A DNA stretch of 64,000 nt. Origin: Rozella allomycis CSF55 (lineage: Eukaryota; Rozellomycota). Position 1 is the first letter of the stretch. The number at the start of each line of letters is the position of its first letter. Below the pieces are notes generated by a model. That model saw only the letters and a list, made by a program, of their open reading frames with translations, searched no databases and was not told the origin of the DNA. Location of the stretch: assembly GCA_000442015.1 (NCBI GenBank), contig KE560945.1:38301-102300 (forward strand). Reading direction: 5' to 3'. This document shows, one piece after another, positions 3,892-62,677 of the stretch. The translations under genes were made by a program, and so were the position numbers.

Positions 3892-4994
3892 ATGAAATTT
3901 TCGGTCATTATCTTGTCCAGTTTGGCAGCAGTGTATTCTACCGATACATATTTAAGCAAAAAGATAGATGTGTCCAACTATGTAGCCAAAGACAAAGATC
4001 TAGCTTCAAAACTAGACATCGTTGAAATCCCTGACGGTATGATTTTTCCAACACTATAAAAGATCTTTTTGATAGTTTATCCAATCTGTTAATGCTTAAA
4101 GATCTCAAGAGTATGGCAGAAAAAGCTGAGAATGATATTGTTACGGCAGGAAAAAGGTATGGACACTTTAGAACTGAAATTGCATTTTTCCAGTCTGGCG
4201 TGTTTGAAAATGTCTTTAAACAGATAGAATATATTTTGAAAGTTGTTGCAAACAAGAATGGTGTTTTGAAGAGAGTTTTAAACGGGATTGAGGAAATCTG
4301 GACATTATCTGCTAGTGGCAAAGAAGATGACATGAGCTACTCCAGAAAAACCCAGATTTACGAGTATTTTAACAGCATGGGTAGAAATAACGAAGAGTTT
4401 CGAAGATTGTTGTTAGGGCCAATGAAGGATCTGGAAGATCAACTGTGCCCAATAAAGCAAACTGTAGAAAGGATGAAACAAACTTTAAAAACTACTAAAG
4501 ATGAAATTTTATGGAAGAATATTCACAGAATGTTTACGTACAATCATAGAAAACTTAGTGTTACGCATCTTTATCATAGTTCAACGAGTGTACAGTTGTT
4601 GATATTGTCCGCATTGGTATTTCTTGAAAATTGGTACGCTGTTCATGAACACTCAGAGTTTTTAGTGAATGATAATTGGGTAATTATTTCAAAGGAAGAC
4701 AAAAACCATAAAAGGGAAATAAGCGAAGAATCAATAGAATGGGCAAGGGCGTTGGCAAAGGGTGGTTTTCAAGAGTTGCAACAGTTGGAAGATGTTGTTG
4801 TAAAGATTGAAAAAATGAAACAAGATATTCAGCAGTTAATTAGCGGGATGATAAAATACATTGATAATGTTATGAAGGCAATTTCCTGGAGTAAAAAGAC
4901 CGGGGTAAACGTTAAAGAGCCCGAGGAGCAATTTGTGAATGTGTCCATTTCTTACCATTTAATTGATCAATTGAAGAAAATTGTTAAAAATTAA
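3892..4994 (+). CDS. secreted, mostly helical protein of unknown function
   Basis: Two exons (3892-4036 and 4063-4994, 26-nt intron) encode about 358 residues. The first 18 residues form a signal peptide (MKFS, then a hydrophobic run ending at VYS). The rest is charged, heptad-like helix with few Cys. There is one hydrophobic stretch around residues 210-220 (LLILSALVFL) that could be a membrane segment or buried helix. No family is recognised. The next gene is tRNA-Pro, with no functional link. Secretion makes it a candidate surface or effector protein; that is inference. A similar-looking but not clearly homologous secreted helical gene lies at 46561-47433. Confidence 0.75.
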
Positions 4995-5048
4995 ATCAAT
5001 AAAGCAACTTTTACACTAATAATTTAAAAGAAATGATATTTAAAATAA

Positions 5049-5120
5049 GGGCTCCGCCGAGATTCGAACTCGGGACCTCCTGCACCCGAAGCAAGAATCA
5101 TACCACTAGACCACGAAGCC
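5049..5120 (-). tRNA. tRNA-Pro (anticodon CGG)
   Basis: A 72-nt cloverleaf on the minus strand. Acceptor GGCTTCG pairs with CGGAGCC; the A box (TGGTCTAGTGG) and the TTCGAATC T-loop are present. The anticodon loop TTCGGGT gives CGG. It differs at several positions from the two TGG proline tRNAs at 13515 and 17812, and has no long T-run immediately after it. No intron. Confidence 0.9.
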
Positions 5121-5302
5121 ACGCCATTTTGAAGATCACTAGTTACATCAAATTATCTTGCATTTGTTGCAATACAACACTTTTAACATGTATTGATATC
5201 TTTAGTTCAACAAAGACCCATTAGCCCATTCTGTGTTTACCCAATACCCTAACCCAATACAAGTACATATGTAAAAAATGTTTGACAATGCAAGCTTGTT
5301 TA

Positions 5303-5880
5303 TTAGTAGTAGTCGCCTGAAGTAGCGGTTGTCATTACAAAAAACCTTACTCCCAGAAAGTGGTTACACATAAATTCTACATAATACATTAAAAATCCAT
5401 TTACCTCCAAAGAGTCGCGCCTCTTCACGGCCAGCGCCATTATTAGAAGGCATCACGAATAAATTGGGAGCACCACCATTTGGACCAACAGGTGTTCCGC
5501 GATATGCATCTGGAACTGTGGACACTTGTTGCATCCAGTTTTCTAAAACCCATAACCGTTATAATATTACCTGGGGCGGGTCCATCTTGTGGAAAACGAA
5601 AGAAGATGTACACCGGATCTACGAGAAGAGCAAAGTCGGAATCTACTTCCAATTTAGAGTATACATTTTCCATGAGAAATTTGTACTGCTGTACTTGTTT
5701 TGGTGGTCCTTGTACTACGACGCATGCAGACTTTTCTAGAACTTTTGCGATGACTTTTATTTCGTTCATGTTCCAATCTTTGTGATGCTTTTCTAGTGCA
5801 CTTGGAGGTATTTCGTTTAGGAACTGGGAGAGAGTTTGCGTCACGCGTACGTGTGGCCTTATGACCTTTTTCAGAGTCAT
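5303..5880 (-). CDS. small conserved-looking protein, function unknown
   Basis: Three exons (introns 5543-5570 and 5377-5404, both 28 nt) give 173 residues. The protein begins MTLKKVIRPHVRV and has an alternating alpha/beta pattern (VIAKVLEKSACVVV, then QVQQYKFLMENVYSKL). A Gly/Pro/Asn-rich stretch follows and the end is MTTATSGDYY. I do not recognise the family. Splicing at both sites keeps a single open frame, so the gene itself is credible. The ATG at 5880 is the first in the frame without an unexplained upstream segment. It is tail-to-tail with tRNA-Pro and follows the Hsp70 gene by about 115 bases. Confidence 0.6.
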
Positions 5881-5995
5881 TATCAAGGTGACAAGGGTCA
5901 ACCATACCTTAAGGTAAAATAAGATTTAAAGGTTCAAAGTGGAAATGGTATGAAATTTAAAACCTTGTAAAGGTGAATAAATTAAACAATTTATT

Positions 5996-8533
5996 TTATA
6001 ATTCAACTTTGTCAGTGTGTTCTGCACTAGGAGTTTCATCATTCTCTTTCTCCTTCTCTTCACCCTTCTTATCATTGTCACCCTTCTCCTTCTCTTTCTC
6101 TTTCTCTTCACTCTTCTCTTTCTCACCCCCTTCACTCTTCTCACTCTCCTTTTTCACTTTCTCATTCTTTTCTCTCCTTTTCGCTTCTCTTTTCTTTTTC
6201 TCTTCTTCACGATCTAATAATAGTTTTGCTTGGTAGAATTCAATGTCCAGAATGGATCTTTTGGAATCAATTGAAGAAGAAGTGAAATTGGAATCTTGGA
6301 ATAGATTTAGCGTTGAATGAGACTCTTCTTGAATGGAGAGCCACTCGCTTGTTTCATTTACAGATTTATGAAAATTTATTAATAGAGAAGAATTGTTTTG
6401 AATAATCCATTTTGAATAATTATTAATAGATTCTCTTAATCTATCTGTAGCCAAGGGTCTGGAATCATTTTCATTAAATCTTTCAATAATTTTAGAATAG
6501 ATTGAAGAAATTTGATTTGTTTTTTCAATTATCGCCAAAGTGTTTGAAGAATCTAATAAATCTTCAGAATTTGAAACATCAGATTTCAATTGAGAAATTT
6601 CAGAATCTGAAGCAAATTTTAATTTTTCTTCTTCTTCAAACAAATCGTTAATTTTATAAACAAAAGATTCCAATGAATTTCTCGCTTCTGACAATTTCAT
6701 TTTTTCTTCTTCTTCGTTTTCATAAATTTCTAAAACTTTTTTTGATTTTTCAATTTCTTCTTTTTCTTGAAATTTCATTTTAAATTCACTCGTAAAATTC
6801 AATTCAATTCTGGTTTGATTAAAAATTAAAAATGGTTGAACAAGCGAAATTATTCCACTCTCAACTTGGAAAAGAATTTTCACTTTTGCTTCCCTCAAGA
6901 TTTTTTCTTTTAACATTTCTAGATCTAATCTATTTTCTTCACCCTTGTCATCTAAGCCACCTTGGCCATCTAATCTTTTTTCTTTTTCTTCACTCTTTCT
7001 ATCTTTACTCTTTTCTTCACTCTTTCCTTCACCCTTTCCATCACCCTTTCCATCCCCCTTGTTCTCCAAAATCTTTTCAATTCCTTTTCTCACAGAAATA
7101 AAACAAGAAAATAATTCAGATTCTTTATTCTCAACTCTAATGGTTGCATCATCTAAATCTCTCAACGTTAAATATTTTCTTCCATTTTCTCCATTAAACA
7201 AAACAATTCCAGAATCTGTTTCATTTCTTTTAATTATAAAAGTTTCATCATTCAAATCTTTAATTTCAATTTCTTTCACTTTAAAAAGTTGACTTTTGGA
7301 GGCTGAGTAAAATACTGCGCCATTTGCTGCGGCTTCATCTGAATTCACATTTTTTGCTATTTTATCACCAAATTCTTCACTCAACATTTTTTGTATCATT
7401 GGAACTCTCGTGCCTCCACCAAACAAAATTATTGAATTGATTTCTTCATCCTTCATCCCTGCCTTCACAATAGCTTCCTTGATCGGTTTCATCCATTCTT
7501 CCTTCTCTCCAATACATTCACTCTCCAACGTTTCTCGTTTAATCTTCATTCTAAAATTAATCTCATCTACCAAGCCTTCAATAGATGCAAACGTTTCAAC
7601 ATTCGCAGACAAAATCTGTTTCACCCTGTTAGCTTCAATCTTCAATTTAGCCATCGCTTTCTTATTCCCTCTCACATCAATCCCACTTTCTTTCTTAAAT
7701 TCCCTCGCAAAGATTTCTGCCAACTTTCTATCAATCGATGCGCCACCAAGATCTTTGTTATAAGCCACAGATCTAACACTAATCGAAGGAATCAACTTTG
7801 ATTTAATTATCGTGCTATTCGTAGATTGAAATGAAACAACGCTCGCTGAAATGCTTCCAGATCCAACATCATAAAACACATTGTTCACAAACGTCTCATT
7901 CCCACTCTTCCTATTCCCAATCGCATAGTTCAAAGCAACAGCCGCTCCATCACTCATCAACGAGTAAACACGCAAATCTGCAATCCTCGCTGCATCCATA
8001 ATCGCCATTCGCTCCCTTTGCTGAAAATACCCTGGCACTACTATCACACTCCCAGATATACTATCATTCGCATACTCGGCAGCCATAATCTTCACATTCT
8101 TCAAAATCATGGCAACCAACTCTTCAACTTTCACTTCCAGTCCATCCACATTATACTTAACCATCCCCCTCTCATCAACAGCCATCCCCTCAAAATTCAC
8201 ATCCAAATTCTTATCATTCACAACCTCCTCATAATACTTGCCAATCAAACCCTTCAAATTGGGATACGCATTCGCTGGGTAGCGAGACATCTATTCAATA
8301 TACTTCTCATCTTTTACCATATTCACGCCAGCACTGCCAAAATATCTCTCCTTTTCTTTAATAGCTAGAATATTCCTTGTCTTGCGCTTCGACTCTTGGT
8401 TCAACACCATATCAAACCCTCGGCCTTTGGCGACAAGCCCCACCTTCAACCACTCGCTGCCAAAATCAATAGATATAACCGCACTGTAACACACAGTAAC
8501 ACAAACTAACAATAGAAAACCAGTTACACGCAT
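5996..8533 (-). CDS. LHS1: ER-lumenal Hsp70-family chaperone, Lhs1/GRP170 (HYOU1) type
   Basis: Acts in the endoplasmic reticulum as nucleotide-exchange factor and holdase for BiP. Two exons (intron 8291-8317, 27 nt) encode about 836 residues. Residues 1-18 are a signal peptide (MRVTGFLLLVCVTVCYSA), followed by the ATPase start ISIDFGSEW and the Hsp70 block ILFGGGTRVPMIQK. The Lhs1/GRP170 assignment comes from the divergent phosphate-1 motif, the long acidic Lys/Glu-rich insertion in the substrate-binding half, an extended helical tail and the C-terminus DKVEL, which resembles a KDEL-type retrieval signal. The Lys/Glu tracts generate long spurious reading frames on the other strand. A GAAATTTC element lies 15 nt before the ATG. 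Confidence 0.88.
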
Positions 8534-8686
8534 GACAAGGGTTTTTGGAAATTTCTAGAAACAGATTTCCCAAATCAGCAGTAAATAGGTGAGAAAAATA
8601 CATAAATTAATAATCATTAAAACTAATATCAATTTATCAACATAAGTTGTGGAATCCGAATCTTCATCAATAAACTAAATGACTAT

Positions 8687-10215
8687 TTATTTCTTTTGCT
8701 GAAGTAAACTGGCCAATTGCTGAAGCGCATTTATATTAAACCCACCACTAACATTCTCAGCTGTTTCAGGTCCACTTAATGGCGCTTGTTGGTGCGGCTT
8801 TTCGTTTCTACGATTATCAGCGCTTGGTGCGTAATGCTGACCCTTGTTTTCATTCTGAGGCGGGAAAAACTTTTGGTCATTTGGCATTGGTCGATTGTGC
8901 AGTTCATCTCTGTATGATCCTCCATACGGTGGTGCAGCAGGATAATTGTAATCTACCCGAGGTGGCGCGGAATTGTTCAAAAGGGTTCCAAGAGAAGCCA
9001 AAATCTAATTATTCGAACAAGTTGAAATTACTTGTTGGGCTTGCTGTGCTTGCGCAAGTCGAGCATCATTTGATTGCATGGGTGGATAAGGCTCATTTGG
9101 ATAGAATCCTTCACCAGGTGGAAAGTACCCTTGAGGCATTGGATAGTTGGGGTATTGTGGTGTGAAACCCGGATTTAGAGGAGGTGGCATGTACGGGGGA
9201 TTCGAATCACGCTCATCATAATTTGGACGATAGCTATCTGATGTGGTGCGCCGGCCAGACGATCTCCTCTTATCTCCCCCATCACGACTGTCTCGTTTTC
9301 TACTCACTTCTCTCCTCCCATCTGCAATTTCATGTTTCATGACCCTATTTTATATCGAGTTTGTGGTTAAAGTACCGAATGGATAGGTCCCACGTGTATC
9401 TCAACTCAAACGTACCACCGTTGATCTCTTTGCCCTCAATTGAGTTAAACGCGTCTACGCAATGACGACTATCATAGTACTCAATAAATCTCTGACTGAA
9501 AGTTCAAAATGAATGTGATTCTTACTTTGGAGTGTCTTTGTAAATTCGCACAGACTTTACAGATCCGTATTGTCCGAAAAGTTCGCTAAGCTCTTTTTTA
9601 GAAACGGTGTCTTTTCTGCCTTTAACAGTAATGAAAAGTGCTCCCTGAATGATTAAAACGAAAAGCGGATACTTGATTTTTGGTCTCATCGCATCTATCG
9701 GTGTTCAAGTCATCATCTTTTGGCGTTGAAAAATGCACATCGATACATCTATCGCTTTTCATGCGATAGCCATTCATCTCTCTTTTGGCTCTTTCAGCGC
9801 ATCGAATGTCGTACTAACAGTTAAGGGGTAAACTCTTCATTACGTATGTGACAAAAGCCATTCCTCTTTTCTCAATGAGGTTGTAAATAGACTTTATGTC
9901 TCCAAAAGGCTCAAAGAGTTCTCTTATTTCCTGTTCTGGACAGCCATACTCAATGTTCCTAACAAACAAAGTACGAAATGGTTCTTCTCTCGTCACTGGT
10001 TCTTTTTGTGGTTCAGGAGGTGGAGGTGCATGAAAAGGTACTGGAGGAGGAGCATACAATGAAGGTGGCTGCTGGAAAGGAGGATAAAAACCTGGTCCTG
10101 GACCCTGAAAAGTTACAGGTCTATAAGTGTTATTATTTACAGGGGAGCGTGAACGGCGGTCGTAGGGACCATTCCCCGCTCTCCCGCGTCTTCTTGGTAT
10201 TCTTGACCCTGACAT
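8687..10215 (-). CDS. Mei2-like RNA-binding protein with two RRMs
   Basis: Six exons (introns 9814-9843, 9645-9672, 9496-9525, 9345-9375 and 9005-9031; 27-31 nt) encode 460 residues. An Arg- and Pro-rich head is followed by RRM1 (RTLFVRNIEYG ... GMAFVTYYDIR) and RRM2 (GALFITVKG ... NQRFIEYYDSR). Both have the YYDxR ending of RNP1 typical of the first two RRMs of Mei2 proteins. The C-terminal half is disordered and rich in Pro, Tyr, Gln and Asn; the third Mei2 RRM is absent. Likely role: mRNA regulation. An upstream in-frame TTG could extend the protein, but the ATG fits better. Confidence 0.75.
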
Positions 10216-13514: not shown

Positions 13515-13586
13515 GGCTTCGTGGTCTAGTGGTATGATTCTCGCTTTGGGTGTGAGAGGTCCCGAGTTCAATCCTCGGCGGAGCCC
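13515..13586 (+). tRNA. tRNA-Pro (anticodon TGG), copy 1
   Basis: A 72-nt cloverleaf with acceptor GGCTTCG/CGGAGCC, A box TGGTCTAGTGG, B box GAGTTCAATCC and anticodon loop TTTGGGT (TGG). A run of five T follows directly and can act as a pol III terminator. The gene and the first T's are identical to copy 2 at 17812-17883; flanks on either side differ. Confidence 0.95.
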
Positions 13587-17811: not shown

Positions 17812-17883
17812 GGCTTCGTGGTCTAGTGGTATGATTCTCGCTTTGGGTGTGAGAGGTCCCGAGTTCAATCCTCGGCGGAGCCC
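17812..17883 (+). tRNA. tRNA-Pro (anticodon TGG), copy 2
   Basis: Identical over all 72 nt to the tRNA-Pro at 13515-13586, with TTTTTT immediately after the discriminator base. The upstream 10 bases (TCCTCCATAA) differ from those of copy 1, so the duplicated unit is essentially the tRNA gene itself. Confidence 0.95.
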
Positions 17884-37794: not shown

Positions 37795-37949
37795 TCATTC
37801 CGTATCTTCCTCGTCCTCTACATTATTTTCAAAACTCTTTCGAAGAGCTTCTTTCATTTGATAATGCATTTTTCTTTTTTCTTCAAAAGAAGATTTCTTT
37901 TTTAATTTCAATTCAGCATCCGAATCTATCATTGGTGTCGCTCCATGCG
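37795..37949 (-). CDS. 3' exon of a protein phosphatase inhibitor 2 (IPP2/Glc8)-like gene, truncated
   Basis: About 50 codons ending in TGA. They read SSFEEKRKMHYQMKEALRKS and then an acidic tail. This resembles the FExKRKxHY block and acidic end of inhibitor-2 proteins that bind and regulate PP1. A 3' splice site (ATGAG) probably starts the exon at 37949. The rest of the gene is missing because the N at 37986 and the mobile island follow immediately. Identification rests on one motif. Confidence 0.4.
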
Positions 37950-38009
37950 CTCATAAAATCTTAATCCTCGTAAATTGGATAATAANCCATTACAAGCAAA
38001 GTAAAATCA

Positions 38010-39461
38010 ATGCGCAAATCTCTTTTTGGAACTAACGGTATCGAATATGATAAACTCATAAAACAAATTGAACAAGAGCATAACACAAATACGCGTATAC
38101 AGGTCGAAAGAGACTCATTGGGTACAGTGTTAAATTTTATGTGGTGCGATGTTAGGGCTCTGAAATCTTTTGAGTCCACTAATTGTGACTTGTTGCTTGT
38201 AGACACTACATATAAATGCATTCGATTTGACCAGTCATTAGCGCTTTTGGTGTCTTTAGATTGTCATGGCGTTTATTACACAGTCGCAGCTGCCTTTATA
38301 TCTTTAGGAGACTCACACACATTCACATGGTTGATAAACAATTTAAAACATATTTGTCCGAAATTTGGATCATCACAAACCATCATATTTACTGACAATG
38401 ATGCCGCAATGACGTTAGCTTTTGAAGGAATACCTTTTTTGTCTCACTACCTAGACCTTTTCCATTTTGTGCAAGCATTAGACAAAAATCTCAGAAGTCG
38501 CATGCATCAATACGATACATTTCGCCGTAAAATGCGTGAATATGTCCTAACAAAATCTTCTGCTGAGATAGAAGAAGAATTGCAAAATGTCTTTACTAAC
38601 TTTAGAATAACCCAAGCTGATCGTAACTACATTAATTAATACGTCGTGCCCATTTTGCCAAAAGTTTGTCGAAAGAATAGGTCAGAAGCGTTTGACTTTG
38701 GAGTGTCTGGTACCAATGCGTGTGAAGCCTTCAATCGTGTCATCAAAAGTTATGGTGCTAATTTTGCGTCTCATGCTCTTTCCATTATGCAAATTACGGA
38801 CTTTATATTTGAAACTTACACTGCAAAATTTAAATCAATAATTGAACGTAAAACCCAACTCGTAAATGTTGCAAATATGTCACAGTTTGAAAAAGATCTA
38901 AAATGCAAACTTGGCGCATATGCTGAAAATAAGTTAATGAAACAAATGTGTAAAGCAATGTTTCTTAATGTAGTGGCAAATAGCGATAATACAGATTTTA
39001 CAGTCTCTAGCCCCGATGCAGTGCTAGCAAACGTTACATTAACCACATCCAATGAAATTTGTTCGTTCCAATGCACATGTGGTTATTTGCAGCGCAAAGG
39101 AATTATATGTTCACATATTGTAGCTGTGAAACAAATATTAGGTAAATTAGTGTCGTTCCAGGATTGTATTCCCCGTTGGCATTTACCCGATGCCGTGCAA
39201 AATCCAACTAAAGCGTCGGGCTCCAATGTCGTTTCTATATCAACACGCCCGCAAACCTCTTTACGCGAATATCGTTTGAAATTGCAATCACTTCATAAGT
39301 TGATGTTAAACCAAGCGTATGATAGCATTGAGAAACTACAAATTGCTATAGACGGTTGTGAGCAAACATATAAGAGCCTGTTTCCGAACGAAATTGAAAA
39401 CGTCTCCTTAGATCCCCCGCCCAGGCAAAAACGACGATCCAAGCGGAAGAGTAAAAGTTAA
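38010..39461 (+). pseudogene. MULE/FAR1-type transposase with SWIM zinc finger, interrupted by one stop
   Basis: DDE transposase of the Mutator superfamily. The first half (to 38639) contains LLLVDTTYK and the second catalytic Asp block IIFTDNDAAM, with HYLDLFHFVQALDKNL in place of the usual C-x-W-H. After one in-frame TAA (38637-38639) the same frame continues to 39461 with the conserved GTNACEAFNRVIKS region and a SWIM finger (CTCGYLQRKGIICSH). The C-terminus is basic. The N-terminal DNA-binding zinc finger is not seen and may lie beyond the gap at 37986. One stop in an otherwise intact 484-codon frame suggests recent inactivation or a base error. Confidence 0.75.
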
Positions 39462-39497
39462 CAAATAAAACAGACATTCAACCGAAACGATGCTTTA

Positions 39498-40490
39498 TTA
39501 ATTTATGAACCTTTTTTCCATAAGTCCTTCGTGCCCTTTACGTTTTAAGGAGTATGCGCATTCATCCAAATCCAAAAGGTACATGTCCCCATTAGATATG
39601 TTGATACCCACCCCAGTTCCATGTGGCGATTCATCATACCAAATATTTGTAACGTCTCCATTAATACGTTGTTTGAAGTATTTAAGAATAGCACCTGTTA
39701 TGTTGTTGCCATCACACCCTAGTTTAAGTTTCCATTTTGCTAAAACTGTCTTGGGCTGACATGAGAATGCCGCACAATGCATCGGCACATGTTTTTCAAG
39801 TTCGCATGCGCTCACAATTGGAGCGTTGTGAAATGTAATTAACGTTTTCTTAAAATTCTCGAATGTAAATGGTAACGCGACATCCAATGGCGGTTTTCCG
39901 GCTTCAAATTTTTTCGATTTCCACATACGAAAGTTTTGGTTGCAATTATAGTTATAGACGCCCCTGTCAAACAGAAAATGTAAATCATCACCATGCTTTA
40001 AGGGCACCATTAAAGGAAATCTCGCATTAATGTACATCGCCTTTTTAAAACCAGTTATTGTAACGCCATCATCTTCAAACATAGGATATTCCTGTTCGTA
40101 TAACTTATCAATAATCCATCTAAGAACTGCTGAACAATGCTCAATAGATGGAAAAACAACATTTTGGAAAACTAAATGAATACTAAATTTTTTCTCAGAT
40201 GACGCATCTAGAACAATAACGTCATTCACAAGCTCATTGGCTGATTCAATACCCATGCCATGCAATGCCTCTGAGACATACCACTTAAGGCTTTTGACTA
40301 CAGAGTCCGTATTTAGGAGCGAGCGAAATTCGCTGATAACGGTGTCATATTGACAATCAATGTCCATGAAGAATTTAACTGGCACGTCTTTACGAATTAC
40401 TTCGTAGCATGTCTTATTATTGCTTCCGAGAACAGTATAATAATCGTAAAAACTTTGAATGTCCGTTACAGCATAATGCCGGAACCGGCA
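39498..40490 (-). CDS. archaeo-eukaryotic primase (PrimPol/UL52-like)
   Basis: Template-dependent primase/polymerase family. The frame is open from 40490 to the stop at 39498, but has no ATG before KFFMDIDC, so the 5' end is uncertain (another exon, frameshift, or GTG-like artefact). Motifs are IRKDVPVKFFMDID (catalytic D-x-D), SSEKKFSIHLVF (S-x-K-x-S-x-H class motif) and DRGVYNYNCNQNFRMWKSKKF (third motif with Asp and the NRxFR-like block). The C-terminal 110 residues hold several Cys/His that could form the zinc-binding module of PrimPol-like enzymes. It lies tail-to-tail with the transposase, so it is probably cargo or a replication gene of the same element. Confidence 0.7.
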   Translation of the reverse strand, partial: CRFRHYAVTDIQSFYDYYTVLGSNNKTCYEVIRKDVPVKFFMDIDCQYDTVISEFRSLLNTDSVVKSLKWYVSEALHGMGIESANELVNDVIVLDASSEKKFSIHLVFQNVVFPSIEHCSAVLRWIIDKLYEQEYPMFEDDGVTITGFKKAMYINARFPLMVPLKHGDDLHFLFDRGVYNYNCNQNFRMWKSKKFEAGKPPLDVALPFTFENFKKTLITFHNAPIVSACELEKHVPMHCAAFSCQPKTVLAKWKLKLGCDGNNITGAILKYFKQRINGDVTNIWYDESPHGTGVGINISNGDMYLLDLDECAYSLKRKGHEGLMEKRFIN

Positions 40491-40690
40491 CTATTGACCT
40501 CTCTAGACACAAGTATTTTATTCTCCGTCGGATGGTTGGTGGCATATTCAATGCATTTATGCAATTTGCGATGCCATTCAATTTCAGCTCTCAACTTCTT
40601 TAACTTAAACGCTTTCAAAAGCGATATAGCAACCAAACTTCTTTTTGAATTCGACATTCTAAAGATGAGTTTCATATTTTGCCCGAACTT

Positions 40691-41429
40691 CTAGTGAGAA
40701 ACTATTGATAGACAGGTAGTCCTCCATGGTTTGTTTACTCTACCCTGGTTAATATCACTAGGGCAATANGAATAGGCCCACCCGCCAACTGGCCGCAGAA
40801 TAAATGTCGCTGCAACAAAGACAATGTTTAGCACAAGCGAAGCGCACAGCGATACTAGTTCTTGATTCATTAGGATTTTCAAGATACCTTTCAGCAAGCT
40901 ACCCTGGATTTCCGGGAGATCACGGCCAGCGATGAAGAGTGTGAGCAGGTTTCCGCAATTGAATAAAATCAAGACAGCCTTTTCTACAGCAAGCATATTG
41001 ACGGGAAATCCGGTGGAGCAGAGACCTGCCTTTGGAGGATCATAGTACATTCCCAGTGACACGATGAGACATATGGCTCTCATTGCAAAGAACGAGAATG
41101 CAACGTAAGGAAGCTTCTTTTTCGATTTTACAAATATGTAAACTATCTTGGTCTGATATATATCAAGGCATATCTGGGAAATGTAAGATTGGATGTACAA
41201 TGTCAATGAGCGGTAGCCACACGTATCGGTAGGTATTAAATCCCACGCAATGGCCTCAATGTTTAGGGTGGCCAAGAATAGGCCTGATAGAATGAGAAAA
41301 AGGGCTGTTTTGCCGGACCGGTGGAAATGTATGATGTAGCCGTCTGTGATTGAAATGAGGCCCATAGCGATCATTGCAGACCGGAAAACATTGGTGAGAA
41401 CCTGGACACCTGTAAAGTTATTGTTCATC
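40691..41429 (-). CDS. multi-pass membrane protein, C-terminus cut by a gap
   Basis: Begins MNNNFTGVQVLTNVF. About seven hydrophobic helices follow (for example TALFLILSGLFLATLNIEAIAW, LCASLVLNIVFVAATFIL, each interrupted by polar loops). A 7TM topology is plausible. I do not recognise a family. An N at 40769 interrupts the frame after GGWAY, so the true C-terminus is uncertain. The ATG at 41429 is the first in the frame; an upstream TTG frame extension of 13 codons exists and could be a 5' exon tail. No introns seen. Confidence 0.55.
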
Positions 41430-42594: not shown

Positions 42595-42695
42595 CACTTT
42601 AAACATGAATTTAAAAGCATTTTAATCAATAAATAAAGTTTCTATTTTTAGCAACAAAGGAACATTAATGGTAGAAAATTCTCCGTTGATTAGCA

Positions 42696-45600
42696 ATGGA
42701 AAAGGAGGAAAGAGAAGTGCGAAGATTATCAGCAAGCCAAGCTGAGCAAAAGCCTACGGCATGGGCGACAGTGAATCCGCATCATCAAATGACTGTTCGA
42801 TCAATCAAGGATGTGCAAGGTTTCTCAACAATACCGTTTCGTATACCAGACAAGACTGATCCGCGACTGGTTGTAGATTTCCGCTCTATTTCATTATCCG
42901 TTACACAAACGATAGAGAAGCATTCGAGTGAGAAGAAGGGCGACAAGGCTGAAGACCACGTTAGAGCGATCGATGTGCACAAGCTGAGTGCGAATCAGGT
43001 GTTTACGCGTTACAGCACGCATCCGACGTTGGGGCTTGAAAAGGCGGCGTTGGAGAGACTAGCGAATGGGCCCAAGAACCGCATTAACACGCCTCGACCG
43101 AATCCAATTCTTAAAGTGATGAACTTTGTGTTTGGCGGGTTTAATTCTCTTATTTGGATAGCGATGATTTTGTGTTTTGTGTCATACCAGCCGCTGGGTG
43201 GCAATGACCCGCAGATTATTAATTTGGGGATAGCGTTTCTGTTGTTGTTGGTGATTGTAGCGTGTTCAACGTTTTATGGGTTGGTTGATTGGAAGGCGAT
43301 GAAGTCTATGAATGCGATAATGAATTTGATTGCAGAGAGAGCGATTGTGACGCGTGATGGACAAAAGATTGAAGTGGATGCTGATGAGTTGAAGGTTGGG
43401 GATATTGTTGAATTGTCGTTGGGACAGAGAGTGCCTGCTGATTTGTACTTGTTTGAGGTGTCGCCTGATGTGAGGTTTGATAGATCTATTTTGACTGGGG
43501 AGACTGATGCTATACCGGGGACTGTGGAGATGACTGATGAGAATCCATTAGAGACGCATAATTTAGCATTTTCTTCAACGTTTGTTATTCAGGGCAGTGC
43601 ACGCGGGGTTGTGTTTGCTATTGGGAATGAAACGGTTGTTGGGAACATTGTTGCAATGTCTAGCACTGGGAAGATCAAGTTGTCTCGATTGCAGCAAGAG
43701 TTGAATACGTTTACGTTTAGGGTAGCGATTGCAGCGATTGTGATGTTTATAATTTCTATTATATGGTGGGCGACTTACTTGAATACGTATCATGCTGGGT
43801 ATGCGACTATATCAACTGCGATTATTAATGCGATTGGATGTTTGACGTCGTTTGTTCCTGAGGGGTTGCCTATTTGTGTTGCACTGGCGATGACTGTTAT
43901 AGCGAGACGGATGGCCAAGCGCAAAGTGTTGGTGAAGAATTTGTCAACGATTGAAACTGTTGGGTCAATGTCAGTGTTGTGTTCAGATAAGACGGGAACG
44001 TTGACGCAGGGAAAGATGTTTGTTGAAGGGGTGAGGTTTGCAGATAGAGATTTCTACAGTGGAGAAGATTTGATGAAAACAAAGGGAGGAGAGTTGGCGT
44101 TGAAGGTTGGGTATTTGTGTAATGACGCGGCGTTTGAGATTGAAGATGAAGAGTTGCCGTTGGAGAAGATGGGCATTAGAGGGAATTCAACTGATGTTGC
44201 TATTCTAAGATACAGCGCTGTTAATTTGAAGCCAGAGAGTAGTTTGGATGATGAAAACAAGATAATTTATTCAGTGCCATTCAATTCAAAGAATAAATGG
44301 ATGATGACAATCAATCAAACAAAGCAAGGGAATTTCATTTATCTTAAAGGTGCGCCTGATGTTTTATTCAAAATGTGTGATAAAGCAATGTTATCCAATG
44401 GGAATATCATCAATTTAAGTGACAATGTACCAACGATGGATAATGATTTGAAATCTGATGAAAAATCTGATAATTTATCTGCAANGAAAAGAATAATAAT
44501 TTATCTGCAAAGGATTTGTTGCTTCAAGCACAGAGAGAATGGAGTTCAAGTGGAAGAAGAGTTATTGTTTCTTGTTTTAAAAAGATTAATAAATCACTTC
44601 CAGTTAAAGATGATAAATTGATGGAACAAGCGATGAAAGATGAAATGAATGGATTTACTGTTCTTTGTTTAACTGGAATCAGAGACCCTCCAAGAGAAGA
44701 TGTTCCAAACGCAGTTCAAACTATGCGAGAAGCGGGCGTTAAAGTGTTCATGGTCACTGGCGATTTCAGACTAACTGCAGAAGCAATCGCTAAACAAATT
44801 GGAATCATCACTTCAAGCATCGTTGACGATCACGAAAAGTTATTTGATTCAAATTTAATTCAAAAATATAAAAATATGAAATTGCATGAAATGAAACCAA
44901 ATCCAAATGATCCATTGAAAGCAATTGTGTTAACTGGAGACGATGTTAATAAACTATCAGATGACAATTGGAATGTTCTGTTCGCTCTCTACACGGAAAT
45001 TGCTTTTGCTAGAACTACCCCTGAACAGAAAATGATCATTGTTGAAGAATGCAAAAAGAGAGGCGATAACGTTGTTGGTGTAACTGGCGATGGTGTAAAT
45101 GACGCACCCGCTCTAAAAGCTGCTGATATTGGTCTGGCTATGGGCGCTGGCTCTGATGTTGCCAAAGAAGCCGCTTCAATGGTCCTTTTAAACAATGATT
45201 TCGCTTCAATCCCAATCGCTATTGAGAATGGAAGATTATTGTTTGAAAACATGAAGAAAGTTGTCATGTACGTTCTACCAGCTGGCACCTACACAGAACT
45301 CATGGGTGTTATCTCAAACGTCTTTTTCGGCATGCAACTCCCACTCAGCACCTACCTAATGGTCTTCTTCTGCACCTTCAACGACGTCCTCATGTCAATC
45401 GGCCTCATGTTCTGCAAACCAGAATCCGATCTCATGAAAAAACCACCAAGAAACCCGCGCTTGGAGAAACTAACAGACTGGCGATTCTTCATGCACATCT
45501 ACCTCTTTGTCGGCGTAATAATTTGGCTCTCGTGTTTCGGCATGTTCTTCATGTACTGGTCATTCAGCAACTTTGGATTCTACGATCTCTTCCTCGTCTT

Positions 45601-46003
45601 TGAAAAATGGACAGACGGGTACAAGGGTCTTTCTCTGGAAACACTCAATGCGAAACTCGCTGAAAGTCAAAGCATCTTTTACGTCACAATGGCTATCATG
45701 CAAATAGGCAATCTACTCGCCGCATGCAACAGGCGCGAATCGTTCCTGCATTCTAATCCGTTCTTTGGAAGAGGATTCAACCGACAACTCATTGTTTGTC
45801 TCGCTCTGAATGTCGTGCTTGTGTTGGTTAATATCTATGCGTCCAGCTACTCTTATGCGAATATCTTTCGTGTTGGCAATGTGCCTGTGCAGTATTGGTT
45901 CATTCCGATTCCTCTAGCTTTGTTGCTGCTGATGGTGGATGAGGGCAGGAAATACCTGGTGAGGAAATATCCTAATTCTTTGCTTGCTAAATGCGCTTGG
46001 TGA
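42696..46003 (+). CDS. P-type ATPase, Na/K-ATPase-like class IIC, split by a scaffold join
   Basis: Membrane cation pump. One intronless frame of roughly 1,090 codons once the artefact is discounted. Motifs in order: LTGETDAIPG (actuator), VPEGLPICVALAMTVIARRM (M4), CSDKTGTLTQGKM (phosphorylated Asp), KGAPDVLF (nucleotide site) and TGDGVNDAPALKAADIGLAMG (hinge). About six further membrane helices follow. The sequence around the phosphorylation site and the VPEGLP helix point to class IIC (Na/K, H/K) relatives found in some early fungi. Around the N at 44485 the two contig ends repeat the same 15 bases; this shifts the frame artificially and makes two apparent ORFs. No beta subunit is visible nearby. 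Confidence 0.92.
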
Positions 46004-59490: not shown

Positions 59491-59720
59491 CATTGAATAT
59501 AAATGAATTAATGAAGAATTCATAGCATTTTGTTTTATTACTTCAAAATGAGCCAATAATGCCCTTGTGTTGGTTTAATCTAGGCAGAACTTATCGAATC
59601 CAAAAAAATATTTGGATACGTTCATTTAATTGAAAAGGATGAAAGTATAGAATTGTTGTACGCTCAGCCACAGACAGAGAGGTTCTCAGGTTTAATTCTT
59701 TGACACAGCCACTTTAGAAA

Positions 59721-61238
59721 ATGGATATGAAACCTTTTCCTCATGAAGTTTTCCTGATAGTTTTGTCGCACTTACGCCTGGATGATGTGAAACAAATGGC
59801 TAGAACTTCACGATCGATTCGGTCACTTTGCTTGGACTTTATTCTTCATCAAGATGGTGAATTATTTATTTTATGGAGATGCCCATACGTTATTCAATAT
59901 GTAATCAATCAGAGATGCGGAAAGTTGTTAACCAAAGATATTTGCCTGGAAATCTTGTCTAAAAGTAATAGGGAAAGATTCGTTTGTTTTATAAACTTTC
60001 ATAGACAAAAAATCTTTACTCAGAAAAATGTGACCTATGCATTCCAATTTGCATGCCGTTATGCACTAATGCAAACCTTACAAAATTATGGGTTAAGCCA
60101 TGAAAACGTCTCTATTCTTGATAAACTTGATTATTCGGCAGACGAAGACTACGCAATAAGATTTGCCGCATATAATGGGTACAAAGAGACTGTTAAGTGG
60201 CTTTTAACAAAACCAAGAGTTAATCCAAGCGCAAGACACAATTTTGCTATTCGTCGCGCATCCGAATTTGGTCATACAGATGTTGTCAAAATTTTGCTTG
60301 AAGATCCTAGAGTAGATCCAAGTGCAAATGATAATTATGCTATTCAGTTGGCGTCCTGTAACGGTCATGAAAATGTTGTTAAACTTTTGCTTGCAGATCC
60401 TAGAGTAGACCCAAGTGCGAATCATAATTCAGCTATTCGACTGGCCTCAACTTATGGTCATGTAGATGTTGTTAAACATTTGCTTCAGATTTCCAAAGTA
60501 GATCCAAGTGCAAGGAACAATGATGCTCTTGTTCAAGCATCTGTGAACGGTCATGCAGATGTAGTGCGACTTTTGATTGACGATGGCAGAGTATATTCAC
60601 TGTATTCTCATTATGTTGCTATTCGGCATGCTTCTAAGCAAGGTCATGTAGATGTTGTCAATAGTTTGCTTGCATATTCCAGACTAAATTCACAAGATGT
60701 GAATTATTTTGTTTTCACGGCTTCCAGTGACGGTCATGCAGAGGCTGTCAAATTTTTACTTAGAGATTCAAGAGCAGATCCGAGCGCAAATGATAATTAT
60801 GCTATTCAGCGGGCTTCCTGTAACGGTCATGTAGATATTGTCAAAATGCTGCTTGCAGATCCTAGAGCAGATCCAAGTGCAAATGATAATTATGCTATTT
60901 GGTCGGCTTCAAGTTATGGTCATGTAGATGTTGTCAAAATGCTGCTTGCAGATCCTAGAGTAGATCCAAGTGCAAATGATAATTATGCTATTCAGTGGGC
61001 TTCCAATAAAGGACATGCTGATATTGTCAAGATTTTGCTTCGGGATTCCAGAGTAGATGCAAGTGCAAGGGACAATTTAGCTCTTGTTCAGGCATCCGAG
61101 AACGGTCATGCAGATGTTGTCAAGATTTTGCTTGAAGATTCCAGAGGATATTCCCCGGCTTCGTTTTATGATGCTTTTCTGGGTGCTTCCAATAAAGGCC
61201 ATGCAATTGTTGTAAAAATGCTGCTGAAAGAGTTGTGA
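59721..61238 (+). CDS. F-box-like / ankyrin-repeat protein
   Basis: 505 codons without intron. The N-terminal 45 residues (FPHEVFLIVLSHLRLDDVKQMARTSR) read like an F-box, followed by a family-specific region (CPYVIQYVINQRCGKLLTKD). From about residue 140 come eleven or so ankyrin-type repeats of 34 residues: D-x-R-V-D-PSANDNYAIQ-x-ASCNGH-x-DVVKxLLA. Several repeats are nearly identical at DNA level (DPRVDPSANDNYAI), so the array expanded recently. F-box plus ankyrin suggests an SCF substrate receptor. The repeat style is also common in giant viruses and some chytrids; direction of any transfer is unknown. Confidence 0.85.
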   Translation: MDMKPFPHEVFLIVLSHLRLDDVKQMARTSRSIRSLCLDFILHQDGELFILWRCPYVIQYVINQRCGKLLTKDICLEILSKSNRERFVCFINFHRQKIFTQKNVTYAFQFACRYALMQTLQNYGLSHENVSILDKLDYSADEDYAIRFAAYNGYKETVKWLLTKPRVNPSARHNFAIRRASEFGHTDVVKILLEDPRVDPSANDNYAIQLASCNGHENVVKLLLADPRVDPSANHNSAIRLASTYGHVDVVKHLLQISKVDPSARNNDALVQASVNGHADVVRLLIDDGRVYSLYSHYVAIRHASKQGHVDVVNSLLAYSRLNSQDVNYFVFTASSDGHAEAVKFLLRDSRADPSANDNYAIQRASCNGHVDIVKMLLADPRADPSANDNYAIWSASSYGHVDVVKMLLADPRVDPSANDNYAIQWASNKGHADIVKILLRDSRVDASARDNLALVQASENGHADVVKILLEDSRGYSPASFYDAFLGASNKGHAIVVKMLLKEL

Positions 61239-61702
61239 GTCGATCCGTGCGCAAACAATGGGGCAATTAAATTGGCATCCATTAAAGGCGATGGGTGAAT
61301 TAGCTAAAACGATCATTAAAAAAAGGTTACATTATCAGGTCTTTCCGGTTTTATATCCAAAATGAATAAAAAATATGGACAGATTGTAAACTTTACTTTT
61401 GAGTGATATTGATATCCAAAATCTAATGGCGGCATGGCCATTGAAAAAACTCGTGAAATTTAAGTTTTTCAATTTCGCAAAGATCTTTATACAAGTTTTT
61501 CAGGTCAATGCAGGGTAATTCGTCCATTAAACCTTAAAACTTATCAGCTTGGCTCGTTTCTTGTGAATTTTTATGTAGTAGATAGTTTTCTGCAAACTGG
61601 TATTCAGTTAAATAGTTGAATTCGATTTCAACCTTGTAAACCTAGTTTACTATTTTAAATATTAAGTGAGGTTAACTAGGTTTACAAAGTAGCCATTTAA
61701 AC
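61239..61702. repeat. spacer with segment duplicated upstream of the decayed copy
   Basis: 61385-61630 resembles 59010-59213: shared words include AAACTTTACTTTTGAG, ATTGAAAAAACTCGTGAAAT, TTTCGCAAAGATCTT and TCTGCAAACTGGTATTCAGT. No gene lies in the spacer; it is the 5' flank of the F-box/ankyrin gene at 61703. Just before the ATG, CTAGTTTAC and its approximate reverse complement GTTAACTAG occur. Confidence 0.7.
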
Positions 61703-62677
61703 ATGGATGTCAAACGTATCCCAAATGAGATTTGGTTAGCGATTTTGTCTAACGTAAGGCTTAATGATTTAGAACAACTGTCGAGAATATCACGCTGGCT
61801 TCGTTCACTTTGCTTCGACTTTATTCTTCATAAAGATCCTAAATTAATTTGCTCATGGAAATGCCCATATGTCATTCAATATCTAATCAAGCAGAAAACC
61901 GGCAAAATATTAAATATAGATATGTGCTTGGATATACTTGATAGCACGGACCACACAGAAAGATTCGTTTGTTTTGTAAACGGTCAAAAATTCAAAGAAT
62001 CTTCTCAAAAATCTGTCAACTTTGCCTTTCAATTCGCATGCCAATATGGACTATTGCAAGTGAAAGGGGATAGGATGATGGTGATCGACAGCGAAAAAAG
62101 TATTTCACCCGATCCCGCGGCTGACGAATCCTATGCATTAAGATTAGCCGCCAGAAATGGACACTTTGAAATTGTTGAGTACCTTATAAAAAACTCCAAG
62201 GTTGATCCTGGTGCTATGCACAATGAAGCCATTAAGTTTGCTTCCGCAAATGGCCACGTGGAAACTGTTAAAATTCTACTTGCAGACCCAAGGGTTAACC
62301 CTAGTGCCACGAACAATGTATCTATTTGCAGTGCTTCCGAGAATGGCCATTCAAAAGTTGTCCAACTTCTGCTGGCTGACTCAAGGGTGGATCCAACTGC
62401 ATATAGCAATCGTCCTATTAGAATCGCTTCCAAGAACGGATATGCAAAAGTTGTTAAAATTTTGGTTTCCGATCCAAGGGTAGATCCAAGTGCATGGGAT
62501 AATTATGCCGTTTCTTGGGCTTCAAAAAATGGCCATAGGGAAGTAGTCAACATATTAAAATCAATTGCCTGGAAATCCAGTGAAAGGGCCGCCAAGGTAT
62601 TCGAAGTCACACGCATATGCAGAAGACCTCATAAAGTGCTCAATAACTGGAAGGGGCGGTTTTCCATCATAAAATGA
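61703..62677 (+). CDS. F-box-like / ankyrin-repeat protein, shorter paralogue
   Basis: 324 codons, no intron. The same architecture as the gene at 59721: F-box-like head (IPNEIWLAILSNVRLNDLEQ), family region (SWKCPYVIQYLIKQKTGKIL), then about five ankyrin repeats from residue 135 to 285 (DPRVNPSATNNVSI, DSRVDPTAYSNRPI, DPRVDPSAWDNYAV). The C-terminus is basic. The first 120 residues are closer to the pseudogene at 59214 than to the first paralogue, so the pseudogene derives from this subfamily. Probable role: ubiquitin-ligase adaptor, by inference. Confidence 0.85.
   Translation: MDVKRIPNEIWLAILSNVRLNDLEQLSRISRWLRSLCFDFILHKDPKLICSWKCPYVIQYLIKQKTGKILNIDMCLDILDSTDHTERFVCFVNGQKFKESSQKSVNFAFQFACQYGLLQVKGDRMMVIDSEKSISPDPAADESYALRLAARNGHFEIVEYLIKNSKVDPGAMHNEAIKFASANGHVETVKILLADPRVNPSATNNVSICSASENGHSKVVQLLLADSRVDPTAYSNRPIRIASKNGYAKVVKILVSDPRVDPSAWDNYAVSWASKNGHREVVNILKSIAWKSSERAAKVFEVTRICRRPHKVLNNWKGRFSIIK

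Follow-up and report, generated by a model that had tools for sequence, protein, structure and literature searches.

A stretch of 64,000 nucleotides of the Rozella allomycis CSF55 genome (contig KE560945.1, positions 38,301 to 102,300 of the forward strand; hereafter the window, with coordinates counted from its first letter) contains an island in which a gene for a Mutator-like element (MULE) transposase meets a gene for an archaeo-eukaryotic primase (AEP). On the reading that we favour, this island is a fragment of a R. allomycis family of DNA transposons of approximately 6.4 kb, which combines the MULE transposase with a module of the AEP and an E1-like superfamily 3 (SF3) helicase, and this module probably serves to replicate an excised or donor-linked intermediate of the element. 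The structure of the element is well supported by the co-inheritance of its genes, its anatomy, its target-site duplications and the constraint on its proteins, all of them read from sequence comparisons; that it replicates is what we infer. The genome searches covered 9.97 Mb in 213 contigs; the window itself belongs to scaffold C98, and other loci are named after their scaffolds.

In the window, homology to other copies delimits an element fragment without any terminus at 37987..40682, with identities of 88% over 786 aligned positions and 86% over 268 to the copy at C102, and of 67-75% to that at C14. Its transposase (37987..39461, plus strand) lacks the N-terminal part, which is present in other copies, and matches PF10551 (E 4.4e-11) and the SWIM family PF04434 (E 3e-6). 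It has DDE-type residues in VDTTYK, TDNDAAM and SGTNACE, which we take to be the catalytic set, along with a SWIM finger (CxC..CxH). The gene is broken by an in-frame TAA (38637-38639), at a place where the readable copies at C14 and C114 have sense codons. The main open frame of the primase (39498..40490, minus strand), annotated as hypothetical protein O9G_001815, carries the catalytic-type motifs FMDIDC, KFSIHL, FLFDRGVYN and NQNFRMWKSKKF and matches human PrimPol (E 3.7e-7, or 8.9e-12 with the family profile). By six-frame translation and comparison with the C114 frame, its N-terminal segment (~40469..40657, minus strand) lies in a different frame and starts with MSNSKR, as in C114. The primase stop codon (39498-39500) leaves 36 nt to the transposase, so that the two genes stand stop to stop.

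An earlier sequence-only reading of the window had proposed just such a tail-to-tail pair, with D-x-D, S-x-K-x-S-x-H-like and NRxFR-like motifs in the primase and an apparently truncated IPP2-like gene to the left of the island. The domain, the PrimPol match and the stop positions bear out the pair, the motifs are present in the window frame, and the IPP2 exon is genuine (37795-37950; PF04979, positions 90-128 of a profile of 130, E 6.3e-6), the gene being cut short either in the genome or in the assembly alone. Its extent for the island, 37987..40768, stands as far as 40682, where similarity to other element copies ends in both the genome search and local BLAST; the last 86 nt (40683..40768) are a dispersed repeat, foreign to the element and in place of its helicase half, with 87-90% matches on C125, C191 and C168. 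What this reading overlooked are the SF3 helicase, the element ends, the target duplications and the defectiveness of the window copy, which has an interrupted transposase, a frame-broken primase, no helicase and no element end.

The island is bounded by joins, a single N at 37986 and another at 40769, which had been read as the mark of a multicopy repeat. The island is indeed part of a multicopy mobile element, but flanking by N is by itself uninformative, since many joins elsewhere in the assembly lie between overlapping contigs that are ~90% identical. Given that scaffolds hold overlapping contigs end to end, and that N joins bound the window copy, the gene set might be an assembly artefact in which unrelated contigs were joined by N. 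The window pair, however, is contained in 2782 nt uninterrupted by any N, C114 carries all three genes free of N at 4102-8866, and C102 has both ends, the transposase and the helicase without an N. These N-free stretches lead us to reject an artefact for the gene set as scarcely credible; the 86 nt on the right-hand side of the island may still be one. The sequences facing the two joins (37936-37985 and 40683-40768) are both dispersed repeats, and the pair recurs less than ~0.5 kb apart on C125 and C191, in the reverse of the window order.

Genome searches and local BLAST placed the transposase of this family at five loci: C98 (the window), C102, C14, C114 and C136. At all five, primase sequence lies on the strand opposite the transposase in one relative orientation, as expected from the earlier claim that the two genes travel together. 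The gene order is transposase (+), primase (-), helicase (+), and the helicase follows in all three loci with a surviving right half (C114, C14 and C102). In the gap-free C114 stretch, which carries the complete set, primase and helicase are arranged head to head, with a 2-nt overlap of their open frames at 6584-6585. At C102, an internal deletion equivalent to window positions 38771-40415 has removed most of the primase, of which the 5' part alone remains (31-60% identity over 40-62 aa; in DNA, the 86% identity to the window over 268 positions given above), and the helicase is kept. Transposase and primase give the same grouping: the window copy is nearest to C14 (70-71% in the transposase, 71% in the primase), and both are distant from C114 (41-53% and 50%, respectively). 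As the C14 and C114 scaffolds place overlapping contigs of ~92% identity end to end, the number of copies in them is not exactly countable.

Copies of the transposase without the primase, which the sequence-only reading had named as contrary evidence, were looked for, and within the family C102 is the only locus to have lost most of its primase. At four further MULE loci (C172, C22, C134 and C132), the surrounding 8-10 kb that were fetched contain no relative of the primase or the helicase; in tblastn, their transposases do not match this family even at E<=1 and therefore belong to other lineages. A further MULE-like frame at C114:12215-12919, by eye near the C132 MULE, shares its scaffold with a primase-bearing element.

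The search for copies and ends that had been suggested on first inspection yielded, besides the five loci, termini of the type GGCTAAA...TTTAGCC, within imperfect terminal inverted repeats, and 9-bp target-site duplications. The ends were located through a shared word, ACACCCGGGGTGT, which occurs eight times in the genome (reversed control: 0) and, in the pieces read, is always at or next to a terminus-like stretch. As the window copy has no terminus, the duplications were read at C102, C14 and C22. The C102 element extends without a gap over 4672 bp, from GGCTAAAG... (12544) to ...TTTAGCC (7873), and includes both ends, the transposase and the helicase; its flanks, TATAAAACT and TATAATACT, agree at 8 of 9 positions. 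C22 holds a 209-bp internally deleted derivative with a perfect duplication, GATCGGGAC, on either side, and at C14 a perfect 9-bp duplication, GAAAATCCT, stands after the right end (8602) and before a left end (13067). At this base composition, the chance per comparison is ~8e-6 for 9/9 and ~2e-4 for at least 8/9. The 9-bp duplications at these three loci fall within the 8-11 bp that characterize MULEs, and the PF10551 domain is found in both the window and the C14 copies; the family is thus assigned to the MULEs on both counts.

Within the same locus, the inverted-repeat scores of C102, C14 and C22 were reached by none of 300 shuffles, narrowly so at C22 (25 versus 24). For left and right ends paired across loci, some shuffles reached the score in five of 24 pairs, every one of which includes the right end of C102, and an inverted-repeat search over whole flanks left five of six pairs not above the shuffle maximum, the remaining pair scoring 31 versus 28. 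Apart from C14's own right end, we found seven right-end-like sites, of which those at C107, C105, C191 and C39 are unproven as element ends because no left end is present in the ~600-bp pieces fetched. The left ends at C92, C114 and C136 are of another type, GGGTAGA..., in which the inner word is retained; no right end partnering this type was found. The undeleted element would measure, by arithmetic estimate, ~6.3 kb (C102 with its deletion restored) or ~6.5 kb (C14 minus join overlaps). In C14 (15,621 bp), the last 2 kb resemble the first 2 kb (~94%), and both element ends, with the same 9-bp duplication, face a 4.5-kb retrotransposon-like sequence; this arrangement may be a tandem unit, a circle or a mis-scaffold.

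In C114, the primase is followed on its right by the third gene, an open frame of 462 codons, or 423 codons from an inner ATG at 6701, the form that we used as the helicase query. Homologues occupy the same position in C14 and C102, the latter version being full of stops, and beyond these three loci the genome has no match at E<=0.001. The C114 and C14 sequences match the papillomavirus E1 helicase family (E 4.7e-5, 23.1 bits, and E 1.5e-5, 24.8 bits; Pfam cut-off 26.5) and are the only ones in the genome to do so. By pattern match, both contain in order what we take to be the SF3 motifs, i.e. Walker A, Walker B, motif C and the arginine finger; Walker A deviates in C14 and in one of the C114 versions, and C102 retains Walker B and the arginine finger alone. 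An exact-word search of 5.8 billion proteins with the helicase gave 4119 candidates, none at E<=0.01.

A fourth open reading frame, damaged and on the minus strand, lies between the left end and the transposase in C14 (842-1072 and 14241-14471) and C102 (10862-12117), which belong to one subfamily and are ~50% alike in this frame. It has no recognised domain, the best Pfam hit of its pieces (E 0.014) not being trustworthy. A 77-aa piece of it matches C14 (twice) and C102 alone in the genome, and tblastx detected no remnant of it on the left side of the transposase at either C114 or C136.

As to the primase, the motifs DxD, SxH and FLFD..VYN are all present in the window, C14 and C114 copies, and the third alone in C136. 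A Pfam scan of the window copy matched no family; the N-terminal frame of the C114 primase exceeds the cut-off of PF23162 (AEP_C962R), the sole such place in the genome, and we take C962R to be a protein of African swine fever virus. The best Foldseek matches of a primase model with a weak predicted local distance difference test score (pLDDT 47.5) were PrimPol and poxvirus E5/D5 (best E 0.014, none <=0.001), which would lend mild support to the identification as a primase. No copy of the element matches the UL52/PrimPol zinc motif (PF03121). The only match in the genome, of Herpes_UL52 type, is at C191:262671 (E 3.9e-7), separate from all element copies, and represents a candidate host PrimPol; the element's primase is thus not the single-copy host PrimPol that the sequence-only reading had considered as an alternative.

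In a protein database, an exact-word search with the window primase returned itself alone among 299 candidates, and an alignment search gave eight proteins at E<=10 from 2266 candidates, all named Rozella allomycis and five of them from a second Rozella assembly (ROZALSC1DRAFT). These searches depend on shared exact words, and PrimPol itself did not appear in their output; more distant relatives may therefore exist. IMG/VR scans with the helicase, two primase copies and the N-terminal part of the transposase gave no relative, and searches of PHROGs and NCBIfam nothing useful.

MULEs are known to capture host genes (PMC6431247, PMC6446971; these and the articles cited below are represented by parts of their text). 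Since the primase is similar to eukaryotic PrimPol, the element might be an ordinary MULE that passively captured a host PrimPol and a helicase fragment in the style of Pack-MULEs. Its proteins argue otherwise. Among stop-free pieces, the only ones compared, the proportion of nonsynonymous differences (pN) is 0.14-0.36 and that of synonymous differences (pS) 0.71-0.86 in all 11 between-locus comparisons kept, for transposase, primase and helicase alike, and this constraint persists despite a synonymous divergence (dS) that is saturated in 10 of the 11. The full set comprised 13 comparisons, one being within C114 and one, between two C114 primase C-terminal pieces of 14 codons, being left out on account of a wrong reading frame; two helicase versions in C114 have a ratio of nonsynonymous to synonymous divergence (dN/dS) of 0.22. 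Furthermore, the motifs are retained in copies that are ~50% different, and the genome has its UL52-type host match elsewhere, at C191, and no host SF3 helicase of E1 type that we could find. Such a capture is thus very unlikely, and a Pack-MULE proper, with captured fragments and a lost transposase, is rejected, as the transposase is present and the primase and helicase pieces are constrained. Because this constraint at the protein level holds between loci, the element has long included both primase and helicase, and the substitution patterns indicate that they served it over a long time and that the present copies are decaying.

Several observations weigh against the interpretation as a replicating MULE. 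All copies seen are broken or interrupted by joins, with stop codons, broken frames and, in two cases, an altered Walker A motif, and for this reason they do not show that the element is active. No helicase was detected in the window copy or in C136, the right half being incomplete in both, and the C14 ends are not ordered on their scaffold as one simple insertion. The E1 scores remain below the Pfam cut-off in C114 and C14 alike, one of 14 control genomes likewise gave a sub-cut-off E1 match, a PDB sequence search with the helicase yielded weak P-loop matches and nothing better, and the structure model of the helicase is unusable (pLDDT 38).

If the element works as we propose, the transposase would cut it out at the inverted repeats and later reinsert it. 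On the excised, perhaps circular, or donor-linked element, the SF3 helicase would open the DNA and the primase would lay primers, leaving bulk synthesis to a host DNA polymerase, and the element would not depend solely on replication and gap repair by the host for new copies. We recognised no gene for a DNA polymerase in the element, and protein-primed polymerase B (PF03175) has no match in the genome. Both results would also suit replication genes that act locally, mending the donor gap or the target after cut-and-paste, with no free intermediate being replicated, and the MULE-type ends and 9-bp duplications are those of ordinary cut-and-paste transposition. A primase and an SF3 helicase together, however, are a set for initiating replication rather than for repairing gaps, and we consider a purely local role unlikely.

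Profile matches make a viral ancestry of the primase-helicase module plausible. The whole element could even be a decayed integrated virus, such as a Polinton-like or other small double-stranded DNA virus, which used the MULE transposase as its integrase and lost its capsid genes: primase and helicase resemble viral families (C962R and E1), with weak fold matches to poxvirus E5/D5, and integrated viruses of protists often have a primase-helicase and an integrase (PMC10120064). Yet the element at C102 runs uninterrupted from end to end (4672 bp), and the open reading frames scanned with Pfam gave no capsid match (no search aimed at capsids was made, and the fourth frame has no recognised domain). 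The C14 and C114 subfamilies, moreover, differ by ~50% in protein and have the same core genes, so that any capsid loss would be old. A decayed virus therefore strikes us as improbable, and we retain the transposon with a replication module as the better account.

Compared with known systems, the element shares with MULEs the DDE domain and SWIM finger, 9-bp duplications, inverted repeats and short deleted derivatives, and an extra antisense open reading frame is likewise found in some MULE groups (PMC6446971). It differs from them by its AEP primase and SF3 helicase; the main text of a survey of 1631 MULEs in 50 lineages does not contain the words primase or helicase (PMC6446971). Teratorn, a piggyBac-herpesvirus fusion named in 2023 as the first between a transposon and a DNA virus, likewise joins a cut-and-paste transposase to replication genes including primase and helicase (PMC10175614), but measures 180 kb, has capsid and polymerase genes, neither of which was recognised in the Rozella element of ~6.4 kb, and uses a piggyBac rather than a MULE transposase. 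Polintons and Polinton-like viruses also integrate and have inverted repeats, some with a primase-helicase and an integrase (PMC10120064); by contrast, they span 15-30 kb, encode capsids and use an rve integrase or a tyrosine recombinase, whereas the Rozella element has a MULE transposase, primase and helicase as separate genes and no recognised capsid. In TnGBS-type integrative conjugative elements, a Mutator-type transposase similarly moves a larger multifunctional element (PMC6431247), but these are bacterial and conjugative, and the available part of that article does not mention an AEP-SF3 pair. Among the matches listed in the full-text literature, a scope outside which most subscription journals fall, there was no MULE with a primase or SF3 helicase, and the combination of all three is absent from the available parts of PMC6431247, PMC8647823, PMC6446971, PMC10175614 and PMC10120064.

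Elsewhere in the window, a P-type cation ATPase gene (42690-46003) is split by a single N at 44485, with a few residues repeated on either side; this is the same overlap-at-join pattern as at the element loci, and single-N joins look like unmerged overlapping contigs. Two adjacent genes at 59718-62677 have a weak F-box-like N-terminus and many ankyrin repeats, the first being scanned with Pfam and the second judged by reading alone, and a 93-bp tandem repeat lies within their region at 60270-61146. The only tRNAs of the window are three tRNA-Pro within 13 kb, at 5049-5120 (cgg), 13515-13586 (tgg) and 17812-17883 (tgg).

Cut-and-paste transposons are thought to gain copies via host replication and repair alone, and an element in which a DDE transposase is accompanied by a primase and a replicative helicase of its own would be an exception to this rule. 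A MULE with a replication module is a variant of MULEs, and there is a fair chance that it constitutes a new class. Tentatively, and with the odds somewhat against us, we envisage this class as a capsid-less integrating DNA replicon of ~6.4 kb, which starts replication with its own AEP primase and SF3 helicase, relies on the host polymerase and uses a Mutator-type transposase for entry and exit. Such an element would show that replication modules are exchanged among transposons, plasmids and small DNA viruses without a capsid being involved, and, if this is true, it would link these three kinds of replicon in an early-diverging fungal lineage.

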